Below are positions 1,690-57,760 of a stretch of DNA of 64,000 nt, piece by piece (position 1 is the stretch's first letter; every line of letters begins with the position of its first letter). The notes under the pieces are model-generated. The model saw only the letters and a program-made list of their open reading frames with translations, ran no database searches and was not told where the DNA came from. The DNA comes from Brachyhypopomus gauderio. Taxonomy: Eukaryota > Chordata > Actinopteri > Gymnotiformes > Hypopomidae. The stretch spans positions 4,147,039 to 4,211,038 of the forward strand of contig NC_135213.1 of assembly GCF_052324685.1 (NCBI RefSeq). Reading direction: 5' to 3'. The position numbers and the translations under genes were made by a program.

Positions 1690-4600
1690 CTAACTGCACA
1701 GATGGGTAAATGCGGAGGACAAATTTCAAACTCTTGTCTCATACTCCTCTTTTGATCTTAAACCCAAATGTCTTCAGTGAATAACAAAAACAAAAGAATT
1801 TGCCTCGCTGTTCCAATACGTTTGTAGAGGACTGTAGGCATCAAGAGCTGTATTCACGAGGCTAATGAATCGATTCAAACACTGGGGCACATTGTGGACA
1901 TCAGTGCTGACATGATGAACATATTGGCACGGTGGGTTTTCACAATGGGGAGACCAGGACTGAGGAGGGTACCGTTGAGCGTGGAACATGACGTCCTGGG
2001 CTGTTGTTCCCCGCAGGAAGTCGAACTGTTGCGGACAGAGCTGGAGGTCACCCATCGACACCTGGAGGGCAAGCACGAAGCTCTGAGGATCTTGCAGGGA
2101 CAAGTAATGCCCATCGATCAGTTGTTACGCTGTACTGTACGAAATACAGTCCGATGCATTTCCATTCACCACACCTCTAGCACAGTAGGAATGCCTCATT
2201 GGCCATCGGTATGGTTTGATCTGACTTGATATGCATGTCGTTATTGTTCCCACCATGAAGGCCATATTGGACAAAGCAACCAGCCACACCAAGATCTTGC
2301 TCCAGAAGAGTGAGGAACGAACCAAAGCTCTGGAAAAGGTGAGGTCTTCATGCCAGGACCTGATTTGATGCTCTAGGGTCATCACTTGTATTTTACACTC
2401 TTCTGAAATTTTGATGGACCTGATTAGTCCTGGTATTGTGGAGATGCTTCACAGACCAGGATGGCACTCGAGGCCACTTACTGTATGAAGGTGGGCCGGT
2501 GTGTTTTCAGACTGTGGTATGATGGTCTGAACTCTCTGCCCTGCAGGAGGTGAACGCTCTGCAGTGGGAGATCACCTTCAACCAGGTGCAGTTTAAGAAC
2601 ATAGAGCACGCATGGAACCTGAAGTGTGAGAGGTGAGTGACCGGATGTTAACACCTCTTACGCAGTTGCTAATGGTTGCTAGCAGTGGTTGCTAATGTCT
2701 GCTAGCAGCACTGGGTACATATGCGTTTGTTGCTTTTCTGCGAAGTCTCGAAGGAGCTGTTTTACGGTTTTGCTTACTTCTAAGATTTTACATTTCATAG
2801 TTTATTGTGGACATTGGGGATAATCTGTCTGGATCAGGGTGTGTGCAGAAAACAAGGCACTGAGTCAAGGCCTCAGCAAGAGGATGGAACAACTGCAAGA
2901 GCTACAGACCGAGAACTCCTGTAAGTCTAATTAATGCTTGTCCTCTAATTGATGTCTGTCCTCTAATTAATGCTTGTCCTCTAATTGATGTCTGTCCTCT
3001 AATTAATGCTTGTCCTCTAATTGATGTCTGTCCTCTAATTATTGCTTGTCCTCTAATTGATGTCTGTCCTCACAGCTTAGTTGTTTGGACCCGGTTTAAA
3101 GGAATACACATGAAAGCTAATGTTTCTTTTAATGAATACAAGCTGGTTGGCTGTGGCTAGCGTTATGATAATGAGATGGTACTCATTATAACAAGGCTGA
3201 ATTTATTGCTGATACTATTTTAGAACATAACATTGATTTTCTGTGTTTGACTGAAACCTGGCAACAAACAAATGACTACCTTGCACTGAACCAAGCTATG
3301 CCAACTGACTATCAATTTGTGGACAAACCATGCTTAACTGGACGTGGTGGAGGACTAGCTATTGTGTTTAAATCAGAGTTTAAAGTTAAAACTGTTCCAG
3401 TCCCTCATACGTCTTCATTTGAGTGTTTAGCAGTACTAATTACTGCTGCTAGCCCTCTACTGATTGTACTCGTTTATCGCCCCCCCCAAAACATCTCCTG
3501 TTTTTATTTCTGAGCTTTCTGAGTTACTCGCTTCATTATGTCCTCTTTACTCAAACATTTTGCTGCTTGGTGATTTTAATATCCACGTTGACTCTGGTAA
3601 CTGTCCACTTGCCAAAGAACTTTTAAATGTGCTCCAGTGTTTCGAACTTACCCAGAACGTAGACTTTTCTACACATAATAAGGGTCATATTCTGGACATT
3701 GTTTGTTTTACTGGCATATCACCTACTAATCTCCATGGTATTGATGTAACTATATCTGACCATAAGGCTGTTCTCTTTGATTTTACTCTACCATGTTATA
3801 AGCAGGGGAAGTGTAAACCACGCCAGTTCACTTTTAGAAATACAAAGAATATCAGTCCTCTTGCAATTATGGACTTATTTGATCACACTGCTACACCTGA
3901 AATAATGGACCCTGATATTTTATTAGCCCATTATGACAGAACATTCTCTTCTATTTTAAACAGACTGGCTCCTCCCAAAACTCGCACTGTTACATTTTCA
4001 TATTCGGCTCCTTGGTTTACACCAGAGTTGCGCAAACTAAAAGCTTCTGGACGATAAATTGAGCGTCTTTGGAAGCGAACTGGTCTGACTGTGCATGGCC
4101 ATGCTTACAAAGACTTTGTGGCGAACTACAAGGAAGAATTGAAAAAAGCTAAAACTTTTTATTACTCAAATGTCATTCAAGGTGCCCATGGCAATCCAAG
4201 AGCTCTTTTTTCCACTGTTAGTAAGTTACTGCATCCTGCAAAATGCTCTACCTTAGTTCCATCTACTGAACTATGTTGTCGGTTCATGGCGTTCTTTAAC
4301 CAGAAAATAGCTACAATCTATTCTCAATTTCCATCCAATCTAGCATCTGCTGATTTTGATTCTTCCTCTACACGTTTTAATGGCAGCTGTCTGTGCACTT
4401 TCAATACTGTGCAGGAAGGTTTCGTCTCACAGTTGATTATGACTTCTAGAGCCACCACGTGCCAATTAGATCCGATGCCAAAATCCTGGGTCAAAGCTTG
4501 CCTTACCACAATTTGCCCTTTTATTACACAGTGCGTTAACGCCTCACTGATCGCAGGTCTAGTTCCAGCTTCCTTGAAGATGGCTGCCATTACTCCTGTT

Positions 4601-6319
4601 TTAAAGAAAAATGGCTTAGACCCTGAAAATCTGGCAAACTACAGGCCTATCTCCAATGTTCCTTTCCTCGCCAAAACTCTAGAACGGACGGTAGCTACTC
4701 AGTTAACTGAACACATTGAATAAAAATGAGCTGTTTGAGGTGTTTCAGTCCGGCTTTAGGAGAAATCATAGCACTGAAACTGCACTAGTGAGGGTGGTTA
4801 ATGACCTTCTTATAGCAGCTGACCAGGGGTTGGTAAATTTACTCATACTATTAGACCTGACAGCTGCATTTGACACAGTCTGCCACAAGACATTACTAAC
4901 TTGGCTCTGTAATCTAATTGGCATATCTGGAACTGTTCTTTCTTGGTTTCAGTCTTGCCTTACGGATAGGCAACAGTTTGTTTCAATTGGAGGTTTTAGA
5001 TTTTTTTATCTAAAACGTTAGATAAAAAAAACATTTTTTTCATTTTATCACACGGTGTCCCTCAGGGTTCAGTGCTTGGTCCACTACTTTTTATACTGTA
5101 CTTGCTCCCTCTTGGTGACATTATTAGGGGTCATGGGCTACAGTTCCACTGTTTTGCTGATGATGTACAGATATACATATGCACTAAACCTTCTGTCAGT
5201 CTACCGCCTCCTGTTCTGACTAAGTGTCTAGCTGATGTGAGGACATGGATGAAGGAGAACTTCTTGAGTCTAAACAGTAACAAGACAGAGGCTATATTAA
5301 TTGCTTCTTCTGGTACACTCAAGAAGATTGGCAATAGTGCTGTCTCTATTCCTGAAGTTACTGTCACATCATCAACCCAGATCAGAAATCTGGGAGTCAT
5401 CCTAGACTCAACCCTCTCATTTGAACAACACATTACGAACATCTGTAAGACAGCCTTTTTCATTTAAGGAACATTGCTAGGATCCGACCATTTCTTTCCC
5501 ATACTGCTGCTGAGGCTATTGTTCATGCATTTGTGACATCTAGGATTGACTACTGTAATGCTGTATTGCATGGACTCCCGGCTCGGCTGTTGAACAGGCT
5601 TCAGTATGTGCAAAACTAAGCTGCAAGTGTTTTAACTCATACCAGATCCTGGGTGCATATTACGCCCATTCTGGAACGTCTTCACTGGCTCCCTGTCCAG
5701 TATCGTATTCAGTATAAGGTAATTGTGCTGGTGTTTAAATCTCTGAATGGCTGTGCACCATCCTACCTCAGTAGTCTCCTTCAAACATACTCTCCAGTAC
5801 GCACCTTGCGCTCATCAGAGCTGCACTTGCTCAAAGTTCCTAGCAGCAAGTTGCGCACTATTGGTGATGGGGCCTTTAGTGTGGCTGGGTCAACGTTATG
5901 TGCACTATTGGTGATAGGGCCTTTAGTGTGGCTGGGTCAATGTTATGTGCACTATTGGTGATAGGGCCTTTAGTGTGGCTGGGTCAAAGTTATGGACCTG
6001 TTGGTGATAGGGCCTTTAGTGTGGCTGGGTCAAAGTTATGGACCTGTTGGTGATAGGGCCTTTAGTGTGGCTGGGTCAAAGTTATGGAACAGTCTGCTGC
6101 TTGAGTTACGTACTTGCCCATCTGTCACTATATTCAAGGCACATCTAAAAACCCATCTTTTTCAGTTGGCTTATGGCTGAGCCTATGTTGTTTTATTTGT
6201 ATTTTTGTATTGTATTTTAACGTTAAAATTGTATTTTAATGTTCTTATATTTTCCTTCTATTGTTTGCTATTATTGTGCAATGTCCTTGGGTGTATTGAA
6301 AGGCGCTTATTAAATAAAA

Positions 6320-8809: not shown

Positions 8810-11800
8810 ATGGGCATAAATAAACGCAGTCTGCGCCTTTACTGCACATGTGCCGTGATTCTTATCGCAACGTTTGTATGTGTCGCCTCGTATCTTTGGT
8901 TTGAAGCGCCGACAAGCGCCACAGGTTGGTGTATTTATCTGTCAGTGCTAAGGCAGGTGCCTAGTTAAGTGTACACGGACAGCCAAACTGCACTAGCTGT
9001 TTTGTAAAGCATATCTAACTAGATAACTTGGTTATTTTGAATTGTTGAAAGATTTGACAGACTCCAGTGGAAATGGGGGCGCTAATGTTTATCATAATGC
9101 ATCTAAAACGACCTGACATTTTCTGATTCAGCGTCCATGCGGGACCAAACCTTGGAGTTCTTCAGTAAAGACTCCATGCAGGTGAGGGACGCTGCAGACA
9201 TCACCTGGTATCATGCCGCCAACAGCAAGGACAAGATCAACGAAGCAATTAAAGGTGAGGATCAATCTTTCAGGTTAAGCGTTATTTTATATTTAACGGA
9301 TCTATTCCTAAAGGCTTATCTATGACAGAAGTTTTTAGGACTTTAAGCTCTAGTGCATATCTCCTTCCATATAGCCAAAACCTTTTGCAGAGATTTAAAA
9401 TGTTGAAGGACACTGGCAAGATCCAGAAAGATGTTACGTTGTCTTTGTCTTTTAGAGAAATTAGAGCAAACCATTTTTGATAGAAACGTAATATAATTTA
9501 CTATTAGAACTGGTATGGGTTTTGCAGGACTGGTTGTGAGGTCTCCAGGAGCTGCTGGTCTCCAGGAGCTGCTGGTCTCCAGGAGCTGCTGGTCTCCAGG
9601 AGCTGCTGGTCTCCAGGAGCTGCTGGTCTCCAGGAGCTGCTGTTGGTTTGATCTCAGATTTGTTGGTTCTTGCCTCATCTGTGTAGGTCCTGCTCAGATG
9701 ATTGAAGCCGATGTTCTTCTCAGGGGTCATGACCCCCAGGAACCCATTATGGCACACCCTCCTCTTACAGACAGTGACATCACACTGCAGGAGTGGCTAG
9801 GGGCAGTAGAGAACTCAAACAAGGGAATCAAACTGGACTTCAAAAGGTTGGCCAATGCAGCTGCATCGGAAATTTAATGAAACGTTTTGTCATTTCAGAT
9901 TGGTTATTTGTTGTTTTCTTAAATTGTGCAGACCGGCCCATACTGTACATATTAGTGAAAGGCACTTCCAGGTCTGGGCTCAATAACCAATAATCTTAAT
10001 AATAATAAAAATCTTAATAATTGCTTTACTATGCCAAAGTTCATACAGTTTCACACCATTCAAATTTCCTCACGTACTTGAGAAGATCCAGAAAGACAAT
10101 CAGAATGATTTAGATATGCAAACAACTTATTTTGGTTTAGGTGTAAAACATAGAATTAGAGCAAACTATATATAGGAAGAGATATTATACGTGACTATTC
10201 AATGGACAATGTGTTGCTGCTGAGAATGATGGCCATTTTGTTTTTTCATGAGCTGGTCTCCTCCTCCTCCTTGGTTACCACAGGACACATTTTTGTCTGA
10301 GAGTGTTTATTAGTATGGCTGCATGGGACTACATGGGAGTTGTTCCTGTAAAATTTAAGTGCGTTGGCAAAATGACAGGAAACTGACCAATGAAATTAAT
10401 GTATTTCACTACAAGGGCGGGCCTATAGCAGCATGGTCTTAGCATTCTGAAGAAGGGGCTATGGTATAGTTAGTGAAATGTCCCTGTGTATGGACATGCT
10501 GCTTTGCTCATCTAACTACACATGCAATAGACATCGTGTTTTCAAGGGGGGCGTGGAGGAGGGTGAGGGGCGTGTCTGGAGGAGGGTGAGAGTCGTGTCT
10601 GGAGGAGGGTGAGGGGTCGTGTGGAGGAGAGTGAGGGAGTCGTGTGGAGGAGGGTGGGGGGGTCGTGTGGAGGAGGGTGGGGGGGTCGTGTGGAGGAGAG
10701 TGAGGGGCGTGTCTGGAGGAGAGTGGGGGGGTAGTGTGGAGGAGAGTGAGGGGCGTGTCTGGAGGCGGAACCAGTGACCTCCTCTTCTGCGCAGCCTGCC
10801 GGCGGTGGAACCCTCCATGGCTCTACTGGAGGAGGCTCGTGCTCGACTGAAGGGGCCCGTGTGGCTCAATGCAGACGTTCTTCCAGGGCCTGGGGGCAAG
10901 GCCACACCCCTGGACGCCCAGGCCTTCCTACAGGCAGTGGCTCTGGGAGCCCAGGAGGACGTGCTGTCCTTGGGCTGGACCACCGGATGGTCCCAGGACT
11001 CAGACAACCCAGGTAACGCGTGTCCCTGAATTGTGCAACCTTCTTAATGCACAAGGATATTATTTGGTGCCTCTCATGCCAAGACATTGCAAGATTAAAC
11101 CTTTTTTCCCCCCCACACTTGATAACCCGTACGATTTGTTCTAGAGTACGTGTTCTTCATTAACATCCTGAGAGGCCTCGACACCATCTGGAGCTCCATT
11201 ACAGACTGTCGTCAGCGCTGACTGCCCTCCTTCATCCTGCGTTGGTTTCTAGGTTACGGCTGGGAGATGGTTCAGCAGATGGAGGCGGTGTGTAGGCCCC
11301 TGGGGCGGCCCGTCACGTTCCCGGTGCGGGCGGCTCTCCTGTCCAAGTCCTTCCCACAATTCCAGTGGCTCCTGCAGCAGTCTGACAGGTGGGCGGCGTC
11401 TTGGGCAACACGGTGCGTTGCTATTGGGTGAGCCGGATGCTGATGTGGCTCGGGTGTGTGCGCCGCGGCCTGTTTGCATCTCGAGTGGCTGTACGCAGCG
11501 GGCCACTGATGGGCTGGTTGATTGGTTTCGTGTTATGTAACAGACGCAGCTCATTAAAATCTCTTTGAAGCACTAGTGGTGTAATTCGAGGTCTTGTTCG
11601 AGGCTGGAACAGACACACTCCATTAAGCTGGAAGATGCATGGAGTTGAAGTGCTTACAGCAGGCGGTGCGCTGGTACTAATCCATCCCCCTTCCCCCACT
11701 CCCCTGAGCACTCCAGCATCCAGCCCCGCCCCTCCCCCTCTCCCAGCCCCGCCCCTTCCGCCTCCAGACCTGTGCTGTAGCAGCGAGTGTACAACTTGAC

Positions 11801-13356: not shown

Positions 13357-18300
<4,944 letters not shown>

Positions 18301-28796: not shown

Positions 28797-29201
28797 TTAA
28801 CTGACTGATAGGTTGTAGATCAACGTGCCCTTTTTTGTCATGGCACACGCAATATCGGTAAAAGTGCCCTTGGAAAGTGTTTTGGTGCAGGTGCCCAGAA
28901 CGTCATCGTCCTTCACGTCTTCGTCATACACCACCATCTTCAGAACCTGCCCGGATTTACAGCTGGCAAAGCTGAACACTTCGGACCAGCCGGGATAAGC
29001 CGTGCTCGGTTTGGTGACGGTCCTTCCTCCGCTGACCTTGTTACACGAGACCATAACGTACGGGTCTGGCTTGTTGCCGAGGGCGTCGCCCGCCAGGTCC
29101 CGGGCCCTGAGGCTGCGCACGGTGACGGCCGCGGTGGAGATCATGACGTGGAACACCAGCACCAGGACGGTGAGACACATCAGACGAAGACAGAGACCCA
29201 T
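28797..29201 (-). CDS. Secreted single-C2-domain protein A
   Basis: One coding exon of 134 residues (ATG 29201-29199, TAA 28799-28797). A signal peptide is clear (LCLRLMCLTVLVLVFHVMIS), followed by a lone C2 domain: VTVRSLRARDLAGD, NKPDPYVMVSC, STAYPGWSEVFSFASC, LKMVVYDED and DDDVLGTCTKTL. The Asp residues in DPYV and in YDEDVKDDD sit where C2 domains bind calcium. The layout resembles the C2 tail of perforin without the pore-forming MACPF part; I know of no established function. The ATG follows an acceptor (CATAACAG), and a matching donor (CAG/GTAAGA) near 29374 defines a 5' UTR exon. A longer open frame using TTG upstream crosses that acceptor and was not chosen. Confidence 0.88.
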   Translation of the reverse strand: MGLCLRLMCLTVLVLVFHVMISTAAVTVRSLRARDLAGDALGNKPDPYVMVSCNKVSGGRTVTKPSTAYPGWSEVFSFASCKSGQVLKMVVYDEDVKDDDVLGTCTKTLSKGTFTDIACAMTKKGTLIYNLSVS

Positions 29202-29420
29202 ACTTCCTTCTGTTATGAGCAAGGGGACAAAATGAAGCTTGCAGAACTTGCATGCAAACAGTTTGTTGTTTGGATTACAGTAGAAAATTGAACAGAAGCT
29301 TTCTTAACCTTAATTAACTGCTTTAAAGGCAGAAAACACTGTTTCAGGGTTTGAAGTGGATGGATAGCTCTTACCTGAAGATTCAAAACCCCAAGTTGCT
29401 CTCTGCTAAAACTAGTCCCA

Positions 29421-44375: not shown

Positions 44376-45607
44376 CTGTGGGACTATTATAATTATGTAG
44401 ATTTACTAGATTTTTTTATTTCTGTTTATTTATTGATCTGTCCTGCTACAGAATAACCACCCGTGCCTCACCCTAAGCATTCCAATGCACGAATGTCCTG
44501 TACGTAGATGCAAATGACAAATCAACTCAACTTGTGTGGGTGACCACAAAGGACGGGATCACAGGCCCCAGAGGAAAATTCATTTCCAGATATGTAAACT
44601 CCTTCCTTAAATCAAAGCACTGACACAGGACGATCCAGTAGAATAGGAGTTGACCCTCATTCCTTTCCACTGGTTGATTAGTCCTCCTTTTAATACATTA
44701 CAGCCTCACCTTCTATTAAGTGCCTCTAAACAATTAATGTTAGTAGTATCTTGTTGATTTGGATCAGGGAATTTATGAGAAAATGGGCCCAGCAAGTTCA
44801 TCCTTGTTCTGATTTTTGGGGTTCCTCAGGGCTGTCTGTTATGTCCTTTGCTGTTGTTCTGTGTATTGTAACGGCTGCGGTATTTTCCTGTTGAAATATG
44901 CAGATTAAAGTACCCTTCTTTCTTGTCAGCAAGATACAGACACAGATAGTTCTTGCTACTGTTAATACATCAGCAGTCTTGTCTCGAGGTTAACATTAAC
45001 AAAATTCATTTTGGTACTGTATTACATTTTTTAAATTTAAATATAGGCCTACTGTAATTAGGGTATTTCAGGCAGACCTGGAGTTCGTCTTTAAGCTTTC
45101 TTAGAACACGTCTGTACAGTCCTGACCACAGGTTTGGCAAATGTGAGTTTGTGCTTGTACATTGGCAGGTCACGGTGGTCGCAGTGTGCCAAGGCTGCAG
45201 GTGTTGCTTTCCCTCGTCAGTATTCAGTTAGTTCTTGAATACCGTTTGCTCTATTATTGATTAAAAATATTGGTATTTTGGTCCTCTGCTCTGGTTTATT
45301 TGGCAAAAGAGTCTGCACTGCTCGGCTCTATCTTGGCTACGCAGGCCTGCAAGGGAATGTACAATCTAGGAAAGTTCTCATAGAGAAAAAAGTTACAAAA
45401 AAAAGTTTCAGCTTCCAGTTACAAAATATCAATCTAAGGAACAATCATTTTTAAAGGAATGATGTAAATTAACAACACAGAAGGACGTGACACCACAGTG
45501 AGTCCATGATCATACACAAAGGCTGGTGACTAGCATGACAAATCGCTAAGAATACATTTATAACATTTAGTGTTATATTGATGTACATGTGCTAACTCAC
45601 AGCAGCT

Positions 45608-45671
<64 letters not shown>

Positions 45672-45690
45672 TTGTGTGCATGAATCTGTG
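44376..45690. other. Intergenic, with a possible LINE trace and (GT)n
   Basis: Near 44815-44880 the plus strand reads GVPQGCLLCPLLLFCVL, like the reverse-transcriptase block GVPQG of a LINE, with nothing recognisable around it. A (GT)n tract lies at 45612-45668. The rest looks unique. Confidence 0.45.
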
Positions 45691-45694
45691 AATA

Positions 45695-45870
45695 TATTCC
45701 TGGAAACCAGCTGCCCAGGAGCTGATAAGGTGTTTGACTCATAGGGGGTGGAAACTACTTAAATTTCTTTCATCCAATGGCTGATCAGTGATATAATTTT
45801 CCGATACCCTGGGTGTAGCCAAGAGAGATTTATAGTTCGACTTTTGTAACCAGGTGTCAAGCAAGTCAAC
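45695..45870 (+). promoter_or_regulatory. Promoter of elastase gene 1
   Basis: Blocks shared with the second gene's upstream region: TGGAAACCAGCTGCCCAGG (with E-box CAGCTG), TTCATCCAATGG (CCAAT) and GAGAGATTTATA (TATA-like, 45829-45835), then TTGCCGTTCG after the ATG. The conserved spacing implies a retained acinar-type promoter. Confidence 0.65.
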
Positions 45871-47591
45871 ATGTTGCCGTTCGTTTTGGTGTCAGTGATC
45901 ATCGCTAGTGGTAAGAATCTCTTCATGTTCTCAGACATCAGCATCAGAAGAACTACAGCACAACACCTTGCTCTGTTACACTTTATAGTGCATTAGAACA
46001 GGATTTTTATTATGAAATAAGGGCTTTTATTATGAAATAAGGGCTTTTATTATGCTTTTACACCACAGTATTAAGTCTTGTCAGAGTTACCTCAAATTCC
46101 TATAGTCAGTTGTATATGGGTGGTCAGTGTGGTGATGTACGTCCCCTGCTGTGTGTCCTCCAGCGCTGGGGTGCGGGGTTCCCCCCATCGAGCCCCTCGC
46201 CACCCGCGTGGTCAACGGAGTGGACGCCCGCCCCCACAGCTGGCCCTGGCAGGTCGGTGCCCCCCCCCGCCCGCCCACCACTTCTGTCTCCTCCTGTCTC
46301 TGTTTCTCTCCATCATGCCTCTTTTCCTGTCTTTTCCTCCCTCGTTCTACCCGTCCTCTTGCCCTTCGTCTCTCTGACCCAGCGTATGTCCTGCCCACGC
46401 AGCCCAGCTGGTCCTTTTAATCGCGCTGACGTGTGTTTTGCCGCCCCCACAGATCTCTCTGCAGTACCTGCGTGATGCGGAGTGGAGACACACCTGCGGA
46501 GGATCCCTGATCGCCACCAACTGGGTGATGACGGCCGCCCACTGCATCAAGTACGTGGTGGTTTTTTCTCATGGACGTGTTATGTGCTCAACGCAGGTCA
46601 AGTTCAGCTCTGACGCTCTGGTCATCCTGAAACTTTTATACTGATGCATCGATATATTGATGTAACAATAATAACAATGATATTAATAATTAGATAGAAA
46701 AAATATATTCATGCAGTGCCTTTCAGGGATTCAAGGATGGTAATATGGTCAGCAAACCGGGTCTTGCATTTCCATATGTGCAGAGGTTGCATGTGCTCAC
46801 CACACTTCCTGTATACAGTAACAAGCAGACCTACCGCGTGTACGTGGGGAAGTACAACCTGGTGGAGGAGGAACCCGGCTCCATGGCCCTCTCTCCTGAG
46901 AAGATCATCGTGCATGAGAAGTTCAACCCCATCTTTGCCGCCTTTGGGTGAGAAAGATACCTCAGCCATGAATAAACTGCAAGTTACGGAAAACCTTCTG
47001 AAAATGACCTCAAATGTCATGATAGCAGCCCTCTGTAAAAATGTCTTATGCAGTACATAGAGTTCATGTAGTTACCCACAATGCTCTGGTACGTGTGTTG
47101 TTCTTCCTTTGTACCAGTTCCACCATTTTACCACTCTTCCTTTATCTACGGCTCAAGTGTAAGGACAAATAACACAGTTAGTTGAACAACTGGTCAGTCA
47201 GTCTTTGTTCTGTGTTTGTTCTGCTCTTTATTGGGGTTCTTGAGCAGTTCTAGGAACGTGAGAGGGCAGAGTGTCGGCATCTTACACATAATGCAAACAT
47301 TCTGTTTATGTAAACAAAACATGACAACACAAAGCATTTCCTGCTCATGTCTCCGTGCCGATGTGGTTAGGAATGACGTCGCTCTGATTAAGCTGTCGGA
47401 GCATGTGACTCTGAGCGAGACGGTTCAGCTCGCCTGTTTGCCCCCTGCTGACTCCGTCCTCCCCAACGACTACCCCTGTTACATCACCGGCTGGGGCAGG
47501 ATCTCCAGTAAGTCTGTGTGTGTGTGCATGTATGTAAGAATGTATGATTATATGCTTTGATCAGAAAAAAATGTGACTGTAAAAGTGTTTT

Positions 47592-47679
<88 letters not shown>

Positions 47680-49900
47680 TACAGCTTGTTGCACACATTA
47701 AGTCTACTCTATCACCACATCTGTTGACGTAACAGTGCGTACTGTAGTGTTTCAGCAGTATCCCCTCATTCAGAGGTCGTGTCTATAAAGGTCTATAAAG
47801 CTGTGGTGTCTTCCAGCCGGGGGCCCCATTGCTGACAAGCTCCAGCAGGCCCTCATGCCTGTGGTGGACCACGCCACCTGCACCCAGTCCGACTGGTGGG
47901 GTCCCGCTCTGAGGCCCATCCTTGTGTGTGCGGGTGGAGATGGCGTTGTGGGTGGATGTAACGTAAGTGACACTGCTCAGCCCTATGGGTCATTGCACAC
48001 TGCTGTCTGTACTGATTAGCTTCATGGACACAGGGCCTATGTGTGTGTGTAGCTGCAATAGGCCCTTATGCTGCCATTGGTAGTGGAGTAATTGTGGACG
48101 CAATGTGAATTAAGATGAGATTTATATTGTGATTTTATGGATAAAGTATAACTTTTCCTTAGGGTATCTGCAGTGTTAATTAATAAATCCATATTAATTC
48201 TACATTACACCACCTCTGTTATAGTGTATAGAGTAATATGAAATAAGCATTTGTAACAAAGCATTGATCCATTAATGGATTAATACTTTGATCCCATCGT
48301 GTAAGTACAACATGTCAGTGCCTTGTAACATATTAGATATATTAATATAATATTATAATTAATGGTATAGTTCTGTGGTTACAGTGCTGTTGTAATGTAT
48401 TCATTATTGTCACGCTACGGTCCCCGAACCCTTCGTTTTGGGGCGTGTGTTAACGTTGTCTGTGTCTACTCGTCTGCGTCAGTGTAGCTCCGTGGGTGCG
48501 GGTGCGTCTTGTCATTATCCGTCTCACCTGTGGCTCGTCTCGTCATCACGTGGGGTTGATGTGGTCTGTCTATTTAATGTGCGTTCGCGCAGTGTCTTGT
48601 GCTCGTCGTTGTCTAATGTCTACACGTTGCCGTGTCTGTTTAGGTTAAACGTGCGCTGTATTGCGCAATATTTGTATCACATTAAACGTGACGTCTGCTG
48701 AATTCGGAGGTTCTGTGTCTCATCCTTCGCTACGCTCCCGGCGTCACAATTATGTTAAAATAATATTATAATTACCGGTATGGTTGTGCAGTGATGGTGT
48801 AACGTTTTAGATATTATATGTTAATATAATATTCTAATTACCGGTATGGTTGTGCTGTAACAGTGATGGTGTAACGTGTCTGTCCTGCCGGGTGACTCTG
48901 GTTGTGCTATAGCAGTGGTGGTGTAACGTTTCTCTTCTGCAGGGTGACTCTCGTTGTGCTGTAACAGTGGTGGTGTAACATATCTGTCCTGCAGGGTGAC
49001 TCGTTGTGCTGTAACAGTGGTGGTGTAACGTTTCTGTCCTGCAGGATGACTGTGGTTGTGTTGTAACAGTGGTGGTGTAATGTATCTGTCCTGCAGGGTG
49101 ACTCTCGTTGTGCTATAACAGTGGTGGTGTAACATATCTGTCCTGCAGGGTGACTCTGGTTGTGTTGTAACAGTGGTGGTGTAACATATCTGTCCTGCAG
49201 GGTGACTGTGGTTGTGTTGTAACAGTGGTGGTGTAACATATCTGTCCTGCAGGGTGACTCTGGTTGTGTTGTAACAGTGGTGGTGTAACATATCTGTCCT
49301 GCAGGGTGACTCTTGTTGTGCTGTAACACTGGTGGTGTAACGTATCTGTCCTGCAGGGTGACTCTGGTTGTGTTGTAACAGTGGTGGTGTAATGTATCTG
49401 TCCTGCAGGGTGACTCTGGTTGTGTTGTAACAGTGGTGGTGTAACATATCTGTCCTGCAGGGTGACTCTCGTTGTGCTATAACAGTGGTGGTGTAACGTA
49501 TCTGTCCTGCAGGGTGACTCCGGCGGCCCTCTGAACTGTAAGAACACCGAGGGCGTGTGGGAGGTCCACGGCATCACCAGCTTTGTCTCAGGCCTTGGCT
49601 GCAACTACGTGAAGAAGCCCACCGTCTTCACACGCGTGTCCGCCTTCAACGACTGGATCGACCAGGTGAGAACTGGATCAACAAATTTTACTTTGTATCT
49701 TAAGCAGTGTAGCAGATTCACAGCAGACTGTTTCAGATACTTTTGTGATTTTTAGATGATATTCTGATGTTATAAATATAGCTAGTAATGGCTTCTATAA
49801 TGCTGCTATTAATATAATAATTATTTATATAATAACTATATATAATATAGTTAATAAAGTGTAATCTTTTTGTCATTTTCAGGTTATGATGGATAACTAA
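45871..49900 (+). CDS. ela3l: Elastase-3-like pancreatic serine protease, gene 1
   Basis: Eight exons: 45871-45910, 46164-46252, 46453-46550, 46819-46947, 47371-47507, 47817-47962, 49513-49665 and 49883-49900, totalling 810 nt and 269 residues. A chymotrypsin-fold digestive protease made as a secreted zymogen: signal peptide [13 protein letters not shown], activation peptide ending LATR, mature start VVNGVD. The triad is His in TAAHC, Asp in NDVALIKL and Ser in [14 protein letters not shown] places Val at position 216, as in elastases. GGCNGDSGG puts Gly at 189, where most elastases have Ser. [24 protein letters not shown] and CYITGWGR fit the CELA3/CTRC group; ela3l is my best symbol, not proven. 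Poly(A) AATAAA at 49920-49925. Intron 6 carries a solo LTR and the splice-acceptor minisatellite. The nearly identical gene 2 follows 3.2 kb downstream. Confidence 0.94.
47593..47674. repeat. (GT)n microsatellite in elastase 1 intron 5
   Basis: About 40 GT units, absent from the matching intron of gene 2. Confidence 0.95.
48408..48748 (+). mobile_element. Solo LTR, 341 bp, in elastase 1 intron 6
   Basis: TGTCACGCTACGG to CCCGGCGTCACA, i.e. TG...CA ends, flanked by the 5-bp repeat ATTAT (48403-48407 and 48749-48753). It contains a TATTTAA-type box near 48570 and ATTAAA near 48682, as in a retrotransposon LTR. It is absent from intron 6 of gene 2, so it inserted after the duplication. Confidence 0.88.
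48844..49512 (+). repeat. 52-bp minisatellite of 3' splice sites, elastase 1 intron 6
   Basis: Each unit ends TATCTGTCCTGCAG, identical to the true acceptor of exon 7, and continues GGTGACTC(T), the first codons of exon 7 (Gly-Asp-Ser). AGs of the array fall at 48942, 48994, 49044, 49096, 49148, 49200, 49252, 49304, 49356, 49408 and 49460; the true one is at 49512. A degenerate unit (CTGCCG) lies at 48881-48890. Every unit then runs to an in-frame TAA in GTGGTGTAA. Confidence 0.95.
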
Positions 49901-49965
49901 AGAAGAATTAATTCATCTTAATAAATGTTTCTATCAAATTCTGCCTCTCTCCCTTTTAATACACA

Positions 49966-49969
49966 CACA

Positions 49970-50014
<45 letters not shown>
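49966..50014. repeat. (CA)n microsatellite
   Basis: Just downstream of the elastase 1 poly(A) signal; gene 2 has a similar (CA)n at 56160-56229 in the same relative place. Confidence 0.95.
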
Positions 50015-50016
<2 letters not shown>

Positions 50017-50159
50017 GCATAATCAGCTTTAATTATTTAGCTAGCCCTAAATAAATTTATTAAAAAGCTAACAAACATGCAGTCTATGTAGCTCTCCTAT
50101 CTGATCTGTTACATCTCTTATAAAACAATGTTTGTCCAAATTTTCAAATGATAACATCA

Positions 50160-50295
50160 CTGAACCATTGATGATATTTGGGTTCAGTTACGACTGGATC
50201 ACTGAATCATCACCTACGTGATATTTGGGTTCAGTTACGACTGGATCACTGAATCATCACCTACGTGATATATGGATTCAGTTATGACTGGCTGA
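50160..50295. repeat. 47-bp direct repeat, 2.7 units
   Basis: TGATATTTGGGTTCAGTTAC followed by GACTGGATCACTGAATCATC and ACCTACG. A short ACCTTAATCCTG repeat follows at 50448-50495. Confidence 0.85.
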
Positions 50296-50559
50296 TGAAG
50301 CACAATATGCATGATATACCACTGACAGAGAACCTGTCACAGTTCAGAGTTCAGAGCTGAATTGATGTGGATCTGTACTAACACCAGCCAGAATTACATC
50401 TCAGAGAATCACACAGCTGTCAGTGACTCTTAGGAACACCACAGTCCTGACCTTAATCCTGACCTTAATCCTAACCTTAATCCTGACCTTAATCCCAACT
50501 ATAATCTTGGTGAGACAAAGTCAGAGATAAGTTGAGTTAAGAGAGTTAAGTTGCCAATA

Positions 50560-50625
50560 TTTGCCAATTGTGATTTATACCCCAATTGGAATTTGTCCTC
50601 CGCATTTACCCAATTGTGCAGTGAG

Positions 50626-50714
<89 letters not shown>

Positions 50715-50895
50715 GATCAATAGGGGGCTGTGGTACACATGTTGTCAGAGTGGTGGGGCAGCCCTAGCCCCGGTGCGTGGTGGGCAGTTGGGGTTAAGAG
50801 CCTTGCTCAAGGCACATCAGTCATGGTCTAGATGGGAATGAATCCCACAACCCTCTGGTCACAAGCCCAGTTCCCTACCAGAGCATGACTATAGT
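50560..50895 (-). mobile_element. tRNA-derived SINE, long-tail type, full head
   Basis: Reverse copy. It includes TTTGTCCTCCGCATTTACCC, a (CA)n run at 50629-50710, CTAGTGATCAATAGGGGGC, GCCTTGCTCAAGGCACATCA and the head CCCTCTGGTCACAAGCCCAG TTCCC. Confidence 0.85.
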
Positions 50896-51102
50896 TAAGT
50901 ACTTTAACTATAGGCTCAGTTTTTAAGTTTAAGCTCTGAGAAAATACTTGCAAAGTATCTGCCCTGTCTTTTCTCCCTGTAAGGACATGGGACCGTGTGA
51001 ATCTTTTGATTCTATTTTTGGATACAGAGAACAATAATGTTGCCAGTAGAAAATTTGAACCTTTCTTTGATAATGGGCATACTCTATCCTGGTAAAGAGA
51101 AT

Positions 51103-51155
<53 letters not shown>

Positions 51156-52930
51156 TACTAACTGGATCATCCCATCCTATTTATTGCCATGTCAGTCTGA
51201 ATTTGTTGATGACTGTAAATACTAATTATGCAAGCAGTCAGTCAGTACTGATGCAACAGGTGTTACATCACAAAAATATCTCATCCCCCTCGATGATCAG
51301 GTCTGATGAGCTGGTTTGAAGGCCTCATTTTAATGTGCCATAGTTTAATTGGGACATTTCTGAATGTCCCCAGACTGTAGATTTGGAAACAGAAAGGAAT
51401 GACGTCCAGAGACCTTGTTTTTGCTCAGGCTGTCACAAGTGAAACCACCCAAGAACTAACTAATGTAATATGGCATTAACTCGGTCCGCTGAACAAAAGT
51501 GCTTCTAGATCATTAAAAGCCAACAGCCAGAAAATAGCTCTTTAGGTATTTTCAAATCAAAGTTTATTTGACACATACACCAGGGCTCTCAAGTCTCACG
51601 CATTGAGCGTGTGACACACGCATTAACGTTCGCCACCCCCGTCAACAACTGTCACACTCTGACATGAATCCAAAACTTGAGAGCCCTGGTGTATGTGAAA
51701 ATTAAAACAAGATTAAACTACAGGTGAACATGCCCAAAACAGCTGCCTAGAATAACACACCGATAAGAAATATAAACAGCTTATCAACCACTTTTCTTGT
51801 GCACACATTCAGCCACAGACCATCAGACATCCATTGAAATGTATTAAATACAATTTAGAAATACTTATTCAAAAACTGTAGCCAAACAAGTGGAGGTGTG
51901 AGACACATCATTTATGCGAATGGAGACAAAGCAGCACCAGTATTGACAACTTAGCCACTTTGTCGCTATATTTAGTGAGTATTCAGACTTCTCTGGCTAC
52001 TCCTTTAAAGGGGTCATTTAGCAACTTTAACCTTTAAGACAGCCAATAGTTACTTTCCTTAGTGAGGAGTTGGCAACATGTAGTCATCTAGGTTAGCTAT
52101 TTTGAGAATGTGTTGCATATGAAGTTCTTTATAGCTAGCTTCATGTAACTAGCCAGCTAATTAGCTAACTAGCTACATGGCTAATGCAGAAATCCCTTCG
52201 TAGTGACACTTTCTTGCTCTATAGTTCTTTCCAAAAATTAAGAGAAAAGGTGATATAACACACTTCTTTAAAAAAATAAAATAAAATAAAGACACTCATG
52301 CAGAAAGTCAGTTAGAGCCAGATAATTCAGTTAGGGCGGACTGGTACAATATCCACACCTAGCTTGAATATTCAAAAACTTTTTGATTTGCATGCAGACA
52401 CTTCAGTCCTCCCCAAAACTCAGAGCCAGTATCTGACTCAGGAGCTGGATTCTGCAATTGTAACAAGGCGACTTACAAAGAGGGAGGATTTACAAGTAAG
52501 AGCGGCATAAACAATCAAGAAGACTGTTTGCTTGAATAATAATAGGCTATTGATAATTGATGCATTATTATATTTGATAGTTGATAATATTAACCAAATA
52601 AACACAAAATTAAAAGCACTGAATGTTGATCATGTATTAATCTTGTTATAACAGAAAAGTGTATAAATAAAATGTTATTGTGTTTACTTTTGCTTCTTAA
52701 TGCCGGCACCATAAGGGAAGGAGAGGAATCCAGCCCTCTAACAGACCTACTGCCACCTTACATTTTCTGCTTATTATATTCTAAAGTTTGATTTCATCAT
52801 TACAATCAAATACTAATGACAAAACTCTCAAACTATAATTACATACGTATTTCAAATTAATGTAATTCAAATACTGCATACCTATATATAAAGAAATGTG
52901 TGTGTGTGAGTGTGTGTTTGTGAAGGCCAT
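50896..52930. other. Intergenic between the elastase genes
   Basis: Holds (CA)n at 51108-51153 and the MITE at 51573-51696. The rest is AT-rich and unique-looking, with no exon-like frames. Confidence 0.6.
51573..51696. mobile_element. 124-bp MITE with 22-bp perfect TIRs
   Basis: The ends are ACATACACCAGGGCTCTCAAGT-type: CAGGGCTCTCAAGT on the left and its exact complement on the right, the match extending eight bases outward. The core has CGTTCGCCACCCCCGTCAAC, the reverse of the module seen in the MITEs at 24.2 and 25.2 kb. Confidence 0.85.
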
Positions 52931-52933
52931 GAG

Positions 52934-53138
52934 AATAAGTTCCTGGAAACCAGCTGCCCAGGTGCAGATAAGGCATTTGAATCACAAGGGGTGGTTGCTA
53001 CTTTAATTTCCTTCATCCAATGGATGATCTATGATTTCATTTTTTTGATTCACTGGGTGTGACCATGGTCAGTGACGTTTTGGGACGGAGAGATTTATAC
53101 TTCGGCTTTGCACGCGGTGTCATTTCAATCAAGTCAAT
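52934..53138 (+). promoter_or_regulatory. Promoter of elastase gene 2
   Basis: The same blocks as gene 1: TGGAAACCAGCTGCCCAGG, TTCATCCAATGG and GAGAGATTTATAC (53094-53100), followed by AAGTCAAT just before the ATG. An extra 25 bp or so separates CCAAT and TATA relative to gene 1. Confidence 0.65.
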
Positions 53139-56062
53139 ATGCTGCCGTTCGTTTTGGTGTCGGTGCTCATCGCCAGCGGTAAGACTTTCCAGCACCTTTA
53201 TACATGTCTGTGGACGTTGTTCACACCACCAACGTGCTGCTTCGGTTCAGTACTACAGCACAACACCTTGCTCAGCTACACTTTAAAGTGCATTAGAATT
53301 TAGGGCTTTTATTATGAAATGAGGGCTTTTATTATGCTTTTACACCACAGTATTAAGTCTTGTCAGAGTTACCTCAAATTCCTATGGTCAGTTGTATATG
53401 GGAGGCCAGTGTGGTGATGTACGTCTCCTGCTGTGTGTCCTCCAGCCCTGGGGTGCGGGGTTCCCCCCATCGAGCCCCTCGCCACCCGCGTGGTCAACGG
53501 AGTGGACGCCCGCCCCCACAGCTGGCCCTGGCAGGTCGGTGCCCCCGTCCACCCCATCCCATCTCTTCTTTGCCCCCTCCCATCTCCGTTTTTCTCCATC
53601 TCTGCCTCTCAGCTCTTTCGTTCTACACCCTGTAGTCTTTCACTGTTGGCATAGAGTAGTGATTTAATACAGCTGTTTCTGATTGGCCCTGTATCAGTGT
53701 CTTTGACTCCGCCCCACAGATCTCTCTGCAGTACCTGCGTGACGCTGAGTGGAGACACACCTGTGGAGGATCCCTGATCGCCACCAACTGGGTGATGACG
53801 GCCGCCCACTGCATCGAGTACATGAACCCACTGTTTACCATCCTAACAAATAAGTTACACGCTGGCACCAAGCCAGGTTACACTCATTGTGGTTACACAG
53901 GTTACACTGACGGTGTTACTCTTATAATGGTAGATCGATATATTGGAAGTTTTAATATATTCACCGATGTTATGTCCATCCGACTTTTCCCAGTAAAACG
54001 CGCACCTACCGCGTGTACGTGGGGAAGTATAACCTGGTGGAGGAGGAACCCGGCTCCATGGCCCTCTCTCCTGAGAAGATCATCGTGCATGAGAAGTGGA
54101 ACCCCATCTTTGTGGCCATGGGGTGAGAACCGAACTGCAAGCGCTGCAGTTCTGTGCTACACACCATACAAGTCCGTACGATACAGCCAACCTCTGTGAA
54201 CGCTGCACACGACACTTGCAGTTAATATGGTTACTTAGACACTGTAAACTTACTACAACTACAATAATTGAAATAATGAGTTCTTGAATAATTACAAAGA
54301 AAAATGAAACACTGACCAGTTCGTCAGAGGACAATTCTGTTACTGTAAATCATGTCTCTGTGGTGATGTGGTTAGGAATGACGTTGCTCTGATTAAGCTG
54401 TCGGAGCATGTGACTCTGAGCGAGACGGTTCAGCTCGGCTGTTTGCCCCCTGCTGACTCCGTCCTCCCCAACGACTACCCCTGTTACATCACCGGCTGGG
54501 GCAGGATCTCCAGTAAGTCTGTGTGTTTTCCAATTGGCTAACCATGGATCGGCCTGTATTATTATACAAAGATGTAGACGTGTGTGTAGTTGTGTGTGTG
54601 GCTAATATCGTTAAGTGTGCCAAAGTTGAAGGTTTTATAGTGTGTATGATGTATTGCTGAGTGCAAACGTATCGTTTTCCAGCCGGGGGCCCCATTGCTG
54701 ACAAGCTCCAGCAGGCCCTCATGCCTGTGGTGGACCACGCCACCTGCACCAAGTTTGACTGGTGGGGTCCCGCTCTGAGGCCCACCATGGTGTGTGCGGG
54801 CGGAGATGGCGTTGTGGGTGGATGTAACGTGAGTGACATTACTGCCTTATTATTGTTACTTAATATCACACTGTAATTAACGGTATGGCTCTATTGAAAC
54901 AGTGCTGTTGTACCGTATTTGATAAATTCATATAATGTTAGAATTAATGTTTTGGTTCTGCTGTAACAGTCGTGGTGTAACGTTTTAGATATAATATGTT
55001 AATATAATATTCTAATTACCGGTATGGTTGTGTTGTAACAGTCGTGGTGTAACGTTTTAGATATAATATGTTAATATAATATTCTAATTACCGGTATGGT
55101 TGTGTTGTAACAGGAGTGGTGTAGCATTTTAGATATAATATGTTAATATAATATTCTAATTACCGGTATGGTTGTGCTGTAACACTGGTGGTGTAACGTA
55201 TCTGTCCTGCAGGGTGACTCTGGTTGTGTTGTAACAGTGGTGGTGTAACATATCTGTCCTGCAGGGTGACTCTCGTTGTGCTATAGCAGTGGTGGTGTAA
55301 CGTATCTGTCCTGCAGGGTGACTCTCATTGTGCTATAACAGTGGTGGTGTAATGTATCTGTCCTGTAGGGTGACTCTCGTTGTGCTATAACAGTGGTGGT
55401 GTAATGTATCTGTCCTGCAGGGTGACTCCGGCGGCCCTCTGAACTGTAAGAGCACCGAGGGCGTGTGGGAGGTCCACGGCATCGCCAGCTTTGTCTCAGG
55501 CCTTGGCTGCAACTACGTGAAGAAGCCCACCGTCTTCACACGTGTGTCCGCGTTTAACGACTGGATCGATGGGGTAACGCACCTACACTGTACAACCACA
55601 CAGAGAATTCTAGAACATCACTAATCTACTTATAGAATATGACTATTCAAAAAAGAGTCCCAGAATGTCACCGGCGCATTACTTAACCATATTCACCACA
55701 CCTAGTCTCATTCATGAATGCACACCATAAGATTCTTAAGAGATTTTGCCATATTTATATTAACTGTAGTGCTGTGTGTAGTGGTTTTTGTAAACAGTAT
55801 CACTGATCCCTGAAGTGCAGTATTTGATAAAGGTTTGCTGCTATTTAATGAATGTATATTCAATTTTCTCATATAATGTTTCTATAGTAAAAATGGATAA
55901 TAATAGTAATTAGTAATAGTAATAATTCTACTGGCATAGAATCTGACACACATGTATTCAAATGAAACTACTTTAGATTCAAAATACACATTTAAGTTTA
56001 CTGAGTCTTTAAATATTTTTTTAAATTTTCTTTCTCTTTTTTAGGTTATGATGGATAACTAA
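53139..56062 (+). CDS. ela3l: Elastase-3-like pancreatic serine protease, gene 2
   Basis: Eight exons with the same sizes and phases as gene 1: 53139-53178, 53446-53534, 53720-53817, 53994-54122, 54376-54512, 54683-54828, 55421-55573 and 56045-56062 (269 residues). The triad is intact ([19 protein letters not shown]); activation site LATR/VVNG; Val at 216 and Gly at 189 as in gene 1. Visible differences from gene 1: HCIDKTRTYR for [21 protein letters not shown] for [18 protein letters not shown] for QLACLPP, CTKFDWW for [15 protein letters not shown] for [14 protein letters not shown] for CKNTEG, GIASF for GITSF and DGVMMDN for DQVMMDN. These are clearly recent tandem duplicates, both apparently functional. 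Poly(A) AATAAA at 56096-56101. Intron 6 has a shorter version of the splice-acceptor array and no LTR. Confidence 0.94.
54940..55185 (+). repeat. About 70-bp tandem repeat, elastase 2 intron 6
   Basis: Three to four units of CTAATTACCGGTATGGTTGT, GTTGTAACAGTCGTGGTGTA and ACGTTTTAGATATAATATGT. One and a half such units also stand at 48760-48880 in gene 1. Their GTTGTAACAGTGGTGGTGTAAC part is shared with the 52-bp units, so the two arrays are related. Confidence 0.88.
55186..55420 (+). repeat. 52-bp minisatellite of 3' splice sites, elastase 2 intron 6
   Basis: Four decoy acceptors with AG ending at 55212, 55264, 55316 and 55368 (the last reads CTGTAG), each followed by GGTGACTCT. The true acceptor ends at 55420. 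Spacing is exactly 52 bp throughout. Confidence 0.95.
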
Positions 56063-56152
56063 CATGTTTTCAAGGATCAAGGATTAAATAATTTCAATAA
56101 ATGTTTCATCAAAATAGCTGTGCCAAGTTTCTCTCTTTCTCCCACTCTTTCT

Positions 56153-56159
<7 letters not shown>

Positions 56160-56229
<70 letters not shown>
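56160..56229. repeat. (CA)n microsatellite
   Basis: About 35 CA units, downstream of elastase 2. Confidence 0.95.
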
Positions 56230-56232
<3 letters not shown>

Positions 56233-57760
56233 CATGCATTGTGAACATCTAATTGCGATATCTAATCCTAATTTCAACCTTCCACCCAATCTATAATGAT
56301 AGGTCTGAACTCTAATCTCAACTCTAAACTTCACCATCCTGCACGGGGAAATGGTAAAGCTCTCTCACATCTGTCTGCCCACGTATCTCAACTAGTTAAT
56401 CACCTCAGACTCATAAATGGGTTCATCTAAACTAAATAAAACATCCAGCGATCTCAAATGGATTAAGATTAAAAAGCCAACACAGATGGCAATGAGGTCA
56501 TTTGGTGCCATCTTCAAATGTTACATCCAGTCTTGGATGTTCGGGAGCTATTCTAGGTCTTTGGGTTGTAAGAACAATGTCTGAATTTGCACCAGCAACA
56601 TTTTGACCACCCCCACCCCCAACACACACACACACACCACACCACACAAAAACATCATATTCATAACCTTGTCAGTCTGAATCAATTGACAATTGTAAAT
56701 ATAGATCACGCAAACTGTCAGTCTTTACTGACAGCCACAGTACTTATGCAACTGACATTGCATCATTGCTGTTGATAAAAAACCCTATTACTGTTTCAAC
56801 TGAACAACTTTCAGGAACTGTTTCAACTGGACATTTACCTCAGATCCCCAGAGAAACGTATACGGATTTAAGTTCCCTCATTGTCTCGTTCCACAACAGG
56901 GTCATTCATATTCTACAGACAAACCGGTACATGATGCGAACAGTTCCTCTAAACACAGGTGTTTATATGGTGTTGGTTTCTCCTGGAGGGTGTGGCGGTG
57001 TTTCCTGTTACACCGTTTCTAAATTGTTCAGTATCATGCACGTTCCTCTCATCCACGGGTCAGCCACAGCAATGTGGCCCAAAGCAGAGCTGGAGACACT
57101 GGACCCGAGATAGGACACCAGCCTCCTGCCTCTGATGTACTAAAATGGGACCACTGCTGTGAATTCTGGCAGAGGAAATCAATCTCGAGCCCTGTTGGGT
57201 GTTTGTTATTTTCTTTTTGGCCTTGCACAATGATCCCTCAAAGTTGTGAATACCAGTGTTGAGGCTTCGTTGTGAAATGTTGTAATGATCCCTCAAAGTG
57301 GTTAAAGCATTGTAAAAGTCCAATGTTACAATGATCCTTCGGATGTGATTGAAATTATTTCTCTGTACCGTTGTGTTAAAATAAATAAAACCTTGTCGAC
57401 CAAAAAATATATACGTTTGGTTTGGATCTGCAGGGGTTTTTTTTATCATGCGTCTTGGGGTTAGTTTTAAACAACTAAGAATAAACTGCAATTAAAACTT
57501 CACTGCAATTGGGAAACAAGTATATTTCCGAGAGGAGTTCATAAATCAATAGACCTAGTTGTTAGGGGTCGCTATAGTTTAACAAAATGGTGTTCAGCGC
57601 ACTATTACGATGATTATATAAATTATAAATTGCAGACGTTACTGATGCATGGTGAAAACCCCTGTCTCGCACACATCAGTGAACTCTCGTTCTTTGGTCT
57701 TCTCGGGGATTGCTGCATTTGTAATGTGGGACTCTTGGCGTCACTGTATTGTGTGCAGCA
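56230..57760. other. Intergenic, no confident gene
   Basis: AT-rich, with a short CA-rich stretch near 56600-56645. Longer open frames near 56766-57113 and on the minus strand 57060-57491 have no domains or splice context. Confidence 0.5.

Follow-up and report, generated by a model that had tools for sequence, protein, structure and literature searches.

Tandem repeats that carry splice sites

Minisatellites that have grown over an intron-exon boundary are known from amphioxus as mirages. They have been described for the Adh3, globin, TnC and PGBD5 genes and are reported, or suggested, to leave splicing intact in the available parts of the two reports (PMC3087553, PMC3902484). For the globin mirage, RT-PCR results suggest that regular splicing is undisturbed, and the same excerpt raises a possible role in intron gain (PMC3087553). 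According to the available text, each unit of the BflGb6 mirage spans 150-160 bp, one haplotype having 6 of them and another 3; the Adh3 units measure 10-72 bp (PMC3087553, PMC3902484). In the minisatellite of IFI6 the units carry many donor sites, and the accessible part of the report describes the use of alternative repeat units, which leads to three mRNA species (PMC4526556). The coding repeat of the polyubiquitin gene UBC has tandem dual-specific AGGT sites which, in the extract at hand, are reported to be used both ways (PMC10809524).

Arrays of the amphioxus kind are found at the end of intron 6 in two elastase genes on a 64,000-nucleotide stretch of Brachyhypopomus gauderio DNA, which was analysed as a whole and is referred to as the window. 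We consider it likely that they, too, are minisatellites grown over an intron-exon boundary, and that they are tolerated and near neutral. As in the amphioxus mirages, so far as the excerpts describe them, the fish array spans the boundary, its units being made of 44 nt of intron end and 8 nt of exon 7 with few changes; and many copies retain the splice signal. The inner units of the fish arrays look homogenised, concerted evolution being visible only in part. Both structural features of mirages that were tested, the boundary-spanning unit and the retained splice signal, are present. The regular protein is supported by RT-PCR for the amphioxus globins in the available account, and is suggested for the fish elastases by the intact genes. 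Unlike the amphioxus mirages as they appear in these excerpts, the fish arrays occur in a bony fish and in two paralogues, and they have 52-bp units, 11 intact decoys and an adjoining, parent-like 72-bp repeat. The number of intact decoys is higher than in the described amphioxus globin cases, to which alone this comparison extends.

The units of IFI6 bear splice sites as well, but these are donors in the part of the report available, whereas the fish units bear acceptors. With UBC, as described in the extract, the fish array shares the regular spacing of repeated splice sites; unlike UBC, it is intronic and without AGGT. This UBC-type site is absent from the elastase junction, which reads CAGGGTGAC. 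IFI6 and UBC resemble the fish array in some respects but belong to other kinds. A vertebrate acceptor mirage was not found in open-licence literature among the matches listed, and the fish array would be the first one among these matches, of a structure type already known from amphioxus. It provides a natural test of how a 3' splice site is chosen, with twelve near-identical acceptors of which only the last would yield a working protease, and with a second gene that has five.

The elastase gene pair

Gene 1 (45871..49900, forward strand) is elastase-3-like. Its eight coding exons (45871-45910, 46164-46252, 46453-46550, 46819-46947, 47371-47507, 47817-47962, 49513-49665 and 49883-49900, all on the forward strand) code for 269 aa, and the model translates without stops. 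The closest sequence by identity, among the best 120 of 3244 matches, is 'Elastase 3 like' from Electrophorus electricus (91% over 93%). Intron 6 (47963..49512, forward strand) has a length of 1550 bp and reads GTAAGT...CAG. It is followed by exon 7 (49513..49665, forward strand), which starts with GDSGGPL and provides the catalytic serine. The initial annotation had placed the Gly-Asp-Ser codons at the beginning of this exon, and the exon model, starting with GDSGGP, bears this out.

The tandem paralogue, gene 2 (53139..56062, forward strand), also has eight coding exons and 269 aa. Upon translation of the exon models, each of the two genes gives an intact 269-aa S1 protease frame. They differ in 38 of 810 coding bases (dN 0.033, dS 0.101). 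The two intact frames and the dN/dS of about 0.33 are consistent with purifying selection and hence with working splicing. Judged from the coding sequence, this suggests that exon 7 is spliced normally despite the arrays.

A 52-bp array across the intron 6/exon 7 junction

In gene 1, intron 6 runs into a minisatellite (48847..49520, forward strand) for which Tandem Repeats Finder reports a period of 52, 13.0 copies and 91% matches. An array of about 12 units of 52 bp had been noticed before; the array itself is confirmed, with 13 units by the present count. Each unit joins about 44 nt of intron end to the 8 nt with which exon 7 opens, so it is indeed the intron/exon junction itself that has been amplified. 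The catalytic-serine codon came to be included because it is located at the start of exon 7, of which 8 nt have been copied. That the junction array goes beyond chance follows from the tandem repeat itself. Its copy number is taken from one assembly, and the exact count is less sure than the existence of the array.

The real acceptor AG of gene 1 is located at 49511..49512 (forward strand). It is preceded by 11 intact decoy acceptors (48941..49460, forward strand), as had been claimed, with AGs that end at 48942, 48994, 49044, 49096, 49148, 49200, 49252, 49304, 49356, 49408 and 49460. The 5'-most decoy (48888..48890, forward strand) is dead, with CCG instead of CAG. The AG is intact in 11 of the 12 decoys of gene 1 and in all four of gene 2. 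The AGs of the gene 1 array are 52 nt apart throughout, save for a step of 50 nt from 48994 to 49044, which is due to a 2-bp deletion in that unit. Immediately 3' of the AG, GGTGACTC is found exactly in nine of the 11 intact gene 1 decoys, while those at 49044 and 49200 deviate.

The array of gene 2 (55171..55428, forward strand) has five units, with decoy AGs at 55212, 55264, 55316 and 55368 and the real one at 55420. A 72-bp minisatellite with 3.4 copies (54953..55199, forward strand), likely the parent repeat, is found in the same intron 6. This matching array of gene 2, which together with the parent-like repeat covers 54953-55428, is absent from the initial annotation.

Three long antisense ORFs of 250, 189 and 163 aa extend over the gene 1 array (48821-49604, reverse strand). 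They reflect composition, as the consensus unit is without TTA, CTA and TCA. In the same intron, a region of about 345 bp with near-matching inverted ends (48406-48750; ATTGTCACGC ... GGCGTCACAAT) has the appearance of a small insertion. A search of 45000-56500 against Rfam gave zero matches at the gathering score.

Splice signals and choice of the real site

Acceptors were scored with a small, home-made matrix, based on 22 paralogue acceptors out of 28 loci; six loci were left out where the match start is without AG or is apparently inside an exon (L022, L029, L035, L037, L038, L042). With this matrix, the 12 array AGs of gene 1 are the top 12 of the 53 AGs scored in intron 6, and the five array AGs of gene 2 are the top 5 of 20. 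The real site of gene 1 scores 9.18. Seven of the 11 decoys equal this value, the one at 48942 is higher (10.14), two have 9.03 and one has 6.88. In gene 2, three of the four decoys (9.18) score higher than the real site (9.03), and one has 6.71. As decoys score equal to or above the real site, local strength cannot single it out.

Every array AG is preceded by GTAAC or GTAAT with the A at -17, in agreement with the branch-point-like motif that had been pointed out about 17 nt before each AG. A second TAAC-like motif, which had not been named, has its A at -31, a more usual branch-point distance than -17, and is shared by 11 of the 12 sites in gene 1 and by 4 of the 5 in gene 2. Between -15 and -4, 8 to 10 of the 12 nt are pyrimidines at the array sites.

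Unlike the decoys, the real site opens on exon 7, with a donor 153 nt downstream. Exon definition likely chooses the real site: the spliceosome would take the last acceptor, since no other one leads straight into exon 7 and the enhancers and donor that belong to it.

Structural masking of the decoys was considered but is not supported. The folding energy of the array resembles that of shuffles (z 0.19, 40 shuffles), and accessibility over 8 nt is very low throughout, at decoys as well as at real sites, and does not mark out the real site. Over the 20 nt before the AG, the real site is the most accessible one of the array in each gene (0.00006 and 0.00010), all values being tiny.

Consequences of decoy use

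It had been proposed that any decoy would read about 11 codons and then hit TAA. This is the case for 10 of the 11 gene 1 decoys, the peptide sequences of which vary between units, while the decoy at 48994 gives 23 codons before the stop. Stops are reached from all 11 gene 1 decoys and from all four gene 2 decoys, 171-689 nt before the exon 7/8 junction, which is the last one. With a stop in each of the 11 gene 1 decoys the predicted product is truncated, in keeping with the claim that decoy use would make a dead protease. The decoys have intact acceptor signals and all lead to stops; choice of the last of the twelve near-identical sites is needed for the protease, as had been stated.

An early stop well upstream of the last exon junction is expected to lead to nonsense-mediated decay. 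Given their distance from that junction, the decoy products are expected targets, and transcripts spliced to a decoy would be cleared by this pathway.

Protein databases were searched with a chimaera of exons 1-6 and a decoy tail, of which residues 184-224 were used. None of the 13 matches covers more than 83% of the query, and they have ordinary protease names or no name; judged by names and coverage, no decoy isoform was recognised among them. The array also calls for caution with gene finders and short-read mappers, as junctions could be put on the wrong copy.

Selection or neutrality

The initial annotation had suggested that the array might tune output through non-productive splicing. A set share of the transcripts would then use the decoys and be destroyed, and the array and its length would set the elastase output. 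This is compatible with the position of the stops, which for all 15 decoys of both genes precede the last exon junction by 171 nt or more, and with the many decoys that equal the real site or exceed it in score (7 and 1 of 11 in gene 1; 3 of 4 in gene 2). The 20-nt accessibility maximum at the real site of each gene, though very small in absolute terms, could point the same way. We nevertheless regard regulated unproductive splicing as unlikely. Variable columns make up 6 of 20 in the splice core versus 10 of 32 in the spacer, so by columns there is no excess of conservation in the core (permutation P 0.59). When changed letters are counted there are 7 in the core versus 41 in the spacer, a weak trend in favour of regulation (P 0.05-0.07 in three test versions), and the fewer changes in the core could be a trace of weak selection to keep the decoys. 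The number of units is unequal between the paralogues (13 in gene 1 versus 5 in gene 2), which argues against regulation, as does an array that folds no better than shuffles. The failure to recognise a decoy isoform among the 13 matches of the targeted protein search also counts against it, as do the amphioxus mirages, reported in the available excerpts not to disturb splicing.

Excess conservation of the decoy AGs was also considered. Only 1 of 36 AG cells is changed, where the mean rate (48/936) predicts about 1.8. Such an excess was not found: the loss of AGs fits the general rate, though the letter count trends weakly.

It is quite unlikely that the array acts as a rheostat, a VNTR whose unit number determines what fraction of the elastase transcripts is spliced to decoys and degraded. 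If it did, the VNTR would adjust how much of this digestive enzyme is made, from one individual to another and from one gene copy to the other.

Within the sequence there is no clear sign that favours regulation over neutrality and, together with the reported behaviour of the amphioxus mirages, this leaves the proposed tuning of output without clear support. We prefer to see the array as a tolerated, nearly neutral mirage, the copy number of which would drift through unequal exchange.

The array might instead aid splicing, serial U2AF and branch-point sites boosting recruitment at exon 7 and exon definition selecting the last AG. The branch-point-like motif at -17 in all sites, mostly accompanied by the one at -31, and the 8-10 pyrimidines in 12 nt would suit this function. 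However, other S1 protease exon-7 matches of the genome manage without such an array (a junction-crossing array was found in none of the 28 examined), and we judge a helper function to be very unlikely.

Tandem repeats are prone to misassembly, and the amphioxus BflGb6 mirage, in the part of the report available, seemed aberrantly assembled in the draft genome (PMC3087553). The fish array or its copy number might likewise be wrong through misassembly or collapse. This is highly improbable: the array is borne by two separate genes that have differing unit orders, private variants and flanks, and the 42-Mb contig suggests a long-read assembly, where 674 bp would fit in a single long read.

A first stage of intron gain, with decoy acceptors and weak GT sites turning pieces of the units into exons and introns, has in its favour that the unit contains AGGGTGAC, but it is very improbable, as the dual-specific AGGT is missing from the junction and an intron of 52 nt would be short by vertebrate standards. 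Intron gain has been proposed for the amphioxus mirages in the available text (PMC3087553).

Origin of the array

In gene 2, the 72-bp repeat is found directly 5' of the 52-bp units. The same arrangement occurs in gene 1, where a remnant of the older 72-bp repeat (48774..48846, forward strand, with joints at 48774 and 48840) directly precedes the 52-bp array. The consensus units of the 72-bp and the 52-bp repeat are identical at 30 of 31 positions over the first 31 bp. Identical 52-bp units occur in both genes (those at 49252, 49304 and 49460 in gene 1 and at 55264 in gene 2), and the exon-proximal, last units of the two genes differ in 1 of 52 letters. As unit types are common to both genes, the junction array predates the gene duplication or was exchanged afterwards. 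The two 5'-most units of gene 1 are 4-8 letters away from every other unit, and its 3' edge unit is 1-5 letters away from the other gene 1 units.

From this comparison of units, the splice junction was probably captured by a minisatellite of the intron. The older 72-bp repeat of intron 6 would have ended near the acceptor of exon 7, where a single tandem duplication may have fused the 8th base of exon 7 to the start of a 72-bp unit. The 52-bp hybrid, with about 31 bp of the old unit, the acceptor and 8 exon bases, would then have multiplied, either before the duplication of the elastase gene or accompanied by subsequent exchange between the two genes. With its probable parent repeat next to it, this vertebrate array hints at the way in which such arrays come about.

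The array is located on a 42-Mb contig, and the genome searched comprises 797 Mb. Of the 13 exact copies of the 19-nt junction motif present in the genome, gene 1 accounts for 9 and gene 2 for 4, all of them inside these arrays. When the 52-bp and 72-bp arrays were used as queries, with very common words skipped and only the best candidates scored, matches were found only in these two introns. An origin of the unit from a dispersed repeat or transposon is not supported, as among the best candidates scored neither repeat has a match outside the two introns.

Arrays close to other acceptors

We surveyed 58 other exon matches, consisting of 28 of the 42 other S1 matches listed and 30 of 124 P450 matches. 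Arrays that cross the match end were found in none of them, and arrays within 30 nt of the match end in five (L024, L037, L038, L050 and L060). The match ends only approximate the exon ends, and L037 and L038 are apparently near-duplicates of each other. At L024, which is another S1 protease, an array of 41 bp x 10 extends to position -18 relative to the exon 7 match and thus reaches the branch-point region, short of the AG. In the window, a FAM151B-like gene has arrays at 9540-9642 and 10553-10765 which end 44 and 29 nt before the apparent acceptors 9686 and 10794. Like the elastase arrays, these arrays come close to an acceptor, ending about 18-44 nt from it; unlike them, they stop before the AG and the exon. 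They are possible early stages of junction capture, and arrays near acceptors may be common in this genome.

Elsewhere in the window, ORFs at 3175-5467 have Pfam matches to endonuclease and reverse transcriptase and represent a LINE-like element. ORFs with ankyrin-repeat and C2-domain Pfam matches are found on the reverse strand at 13360-14898 and 28800-29303.
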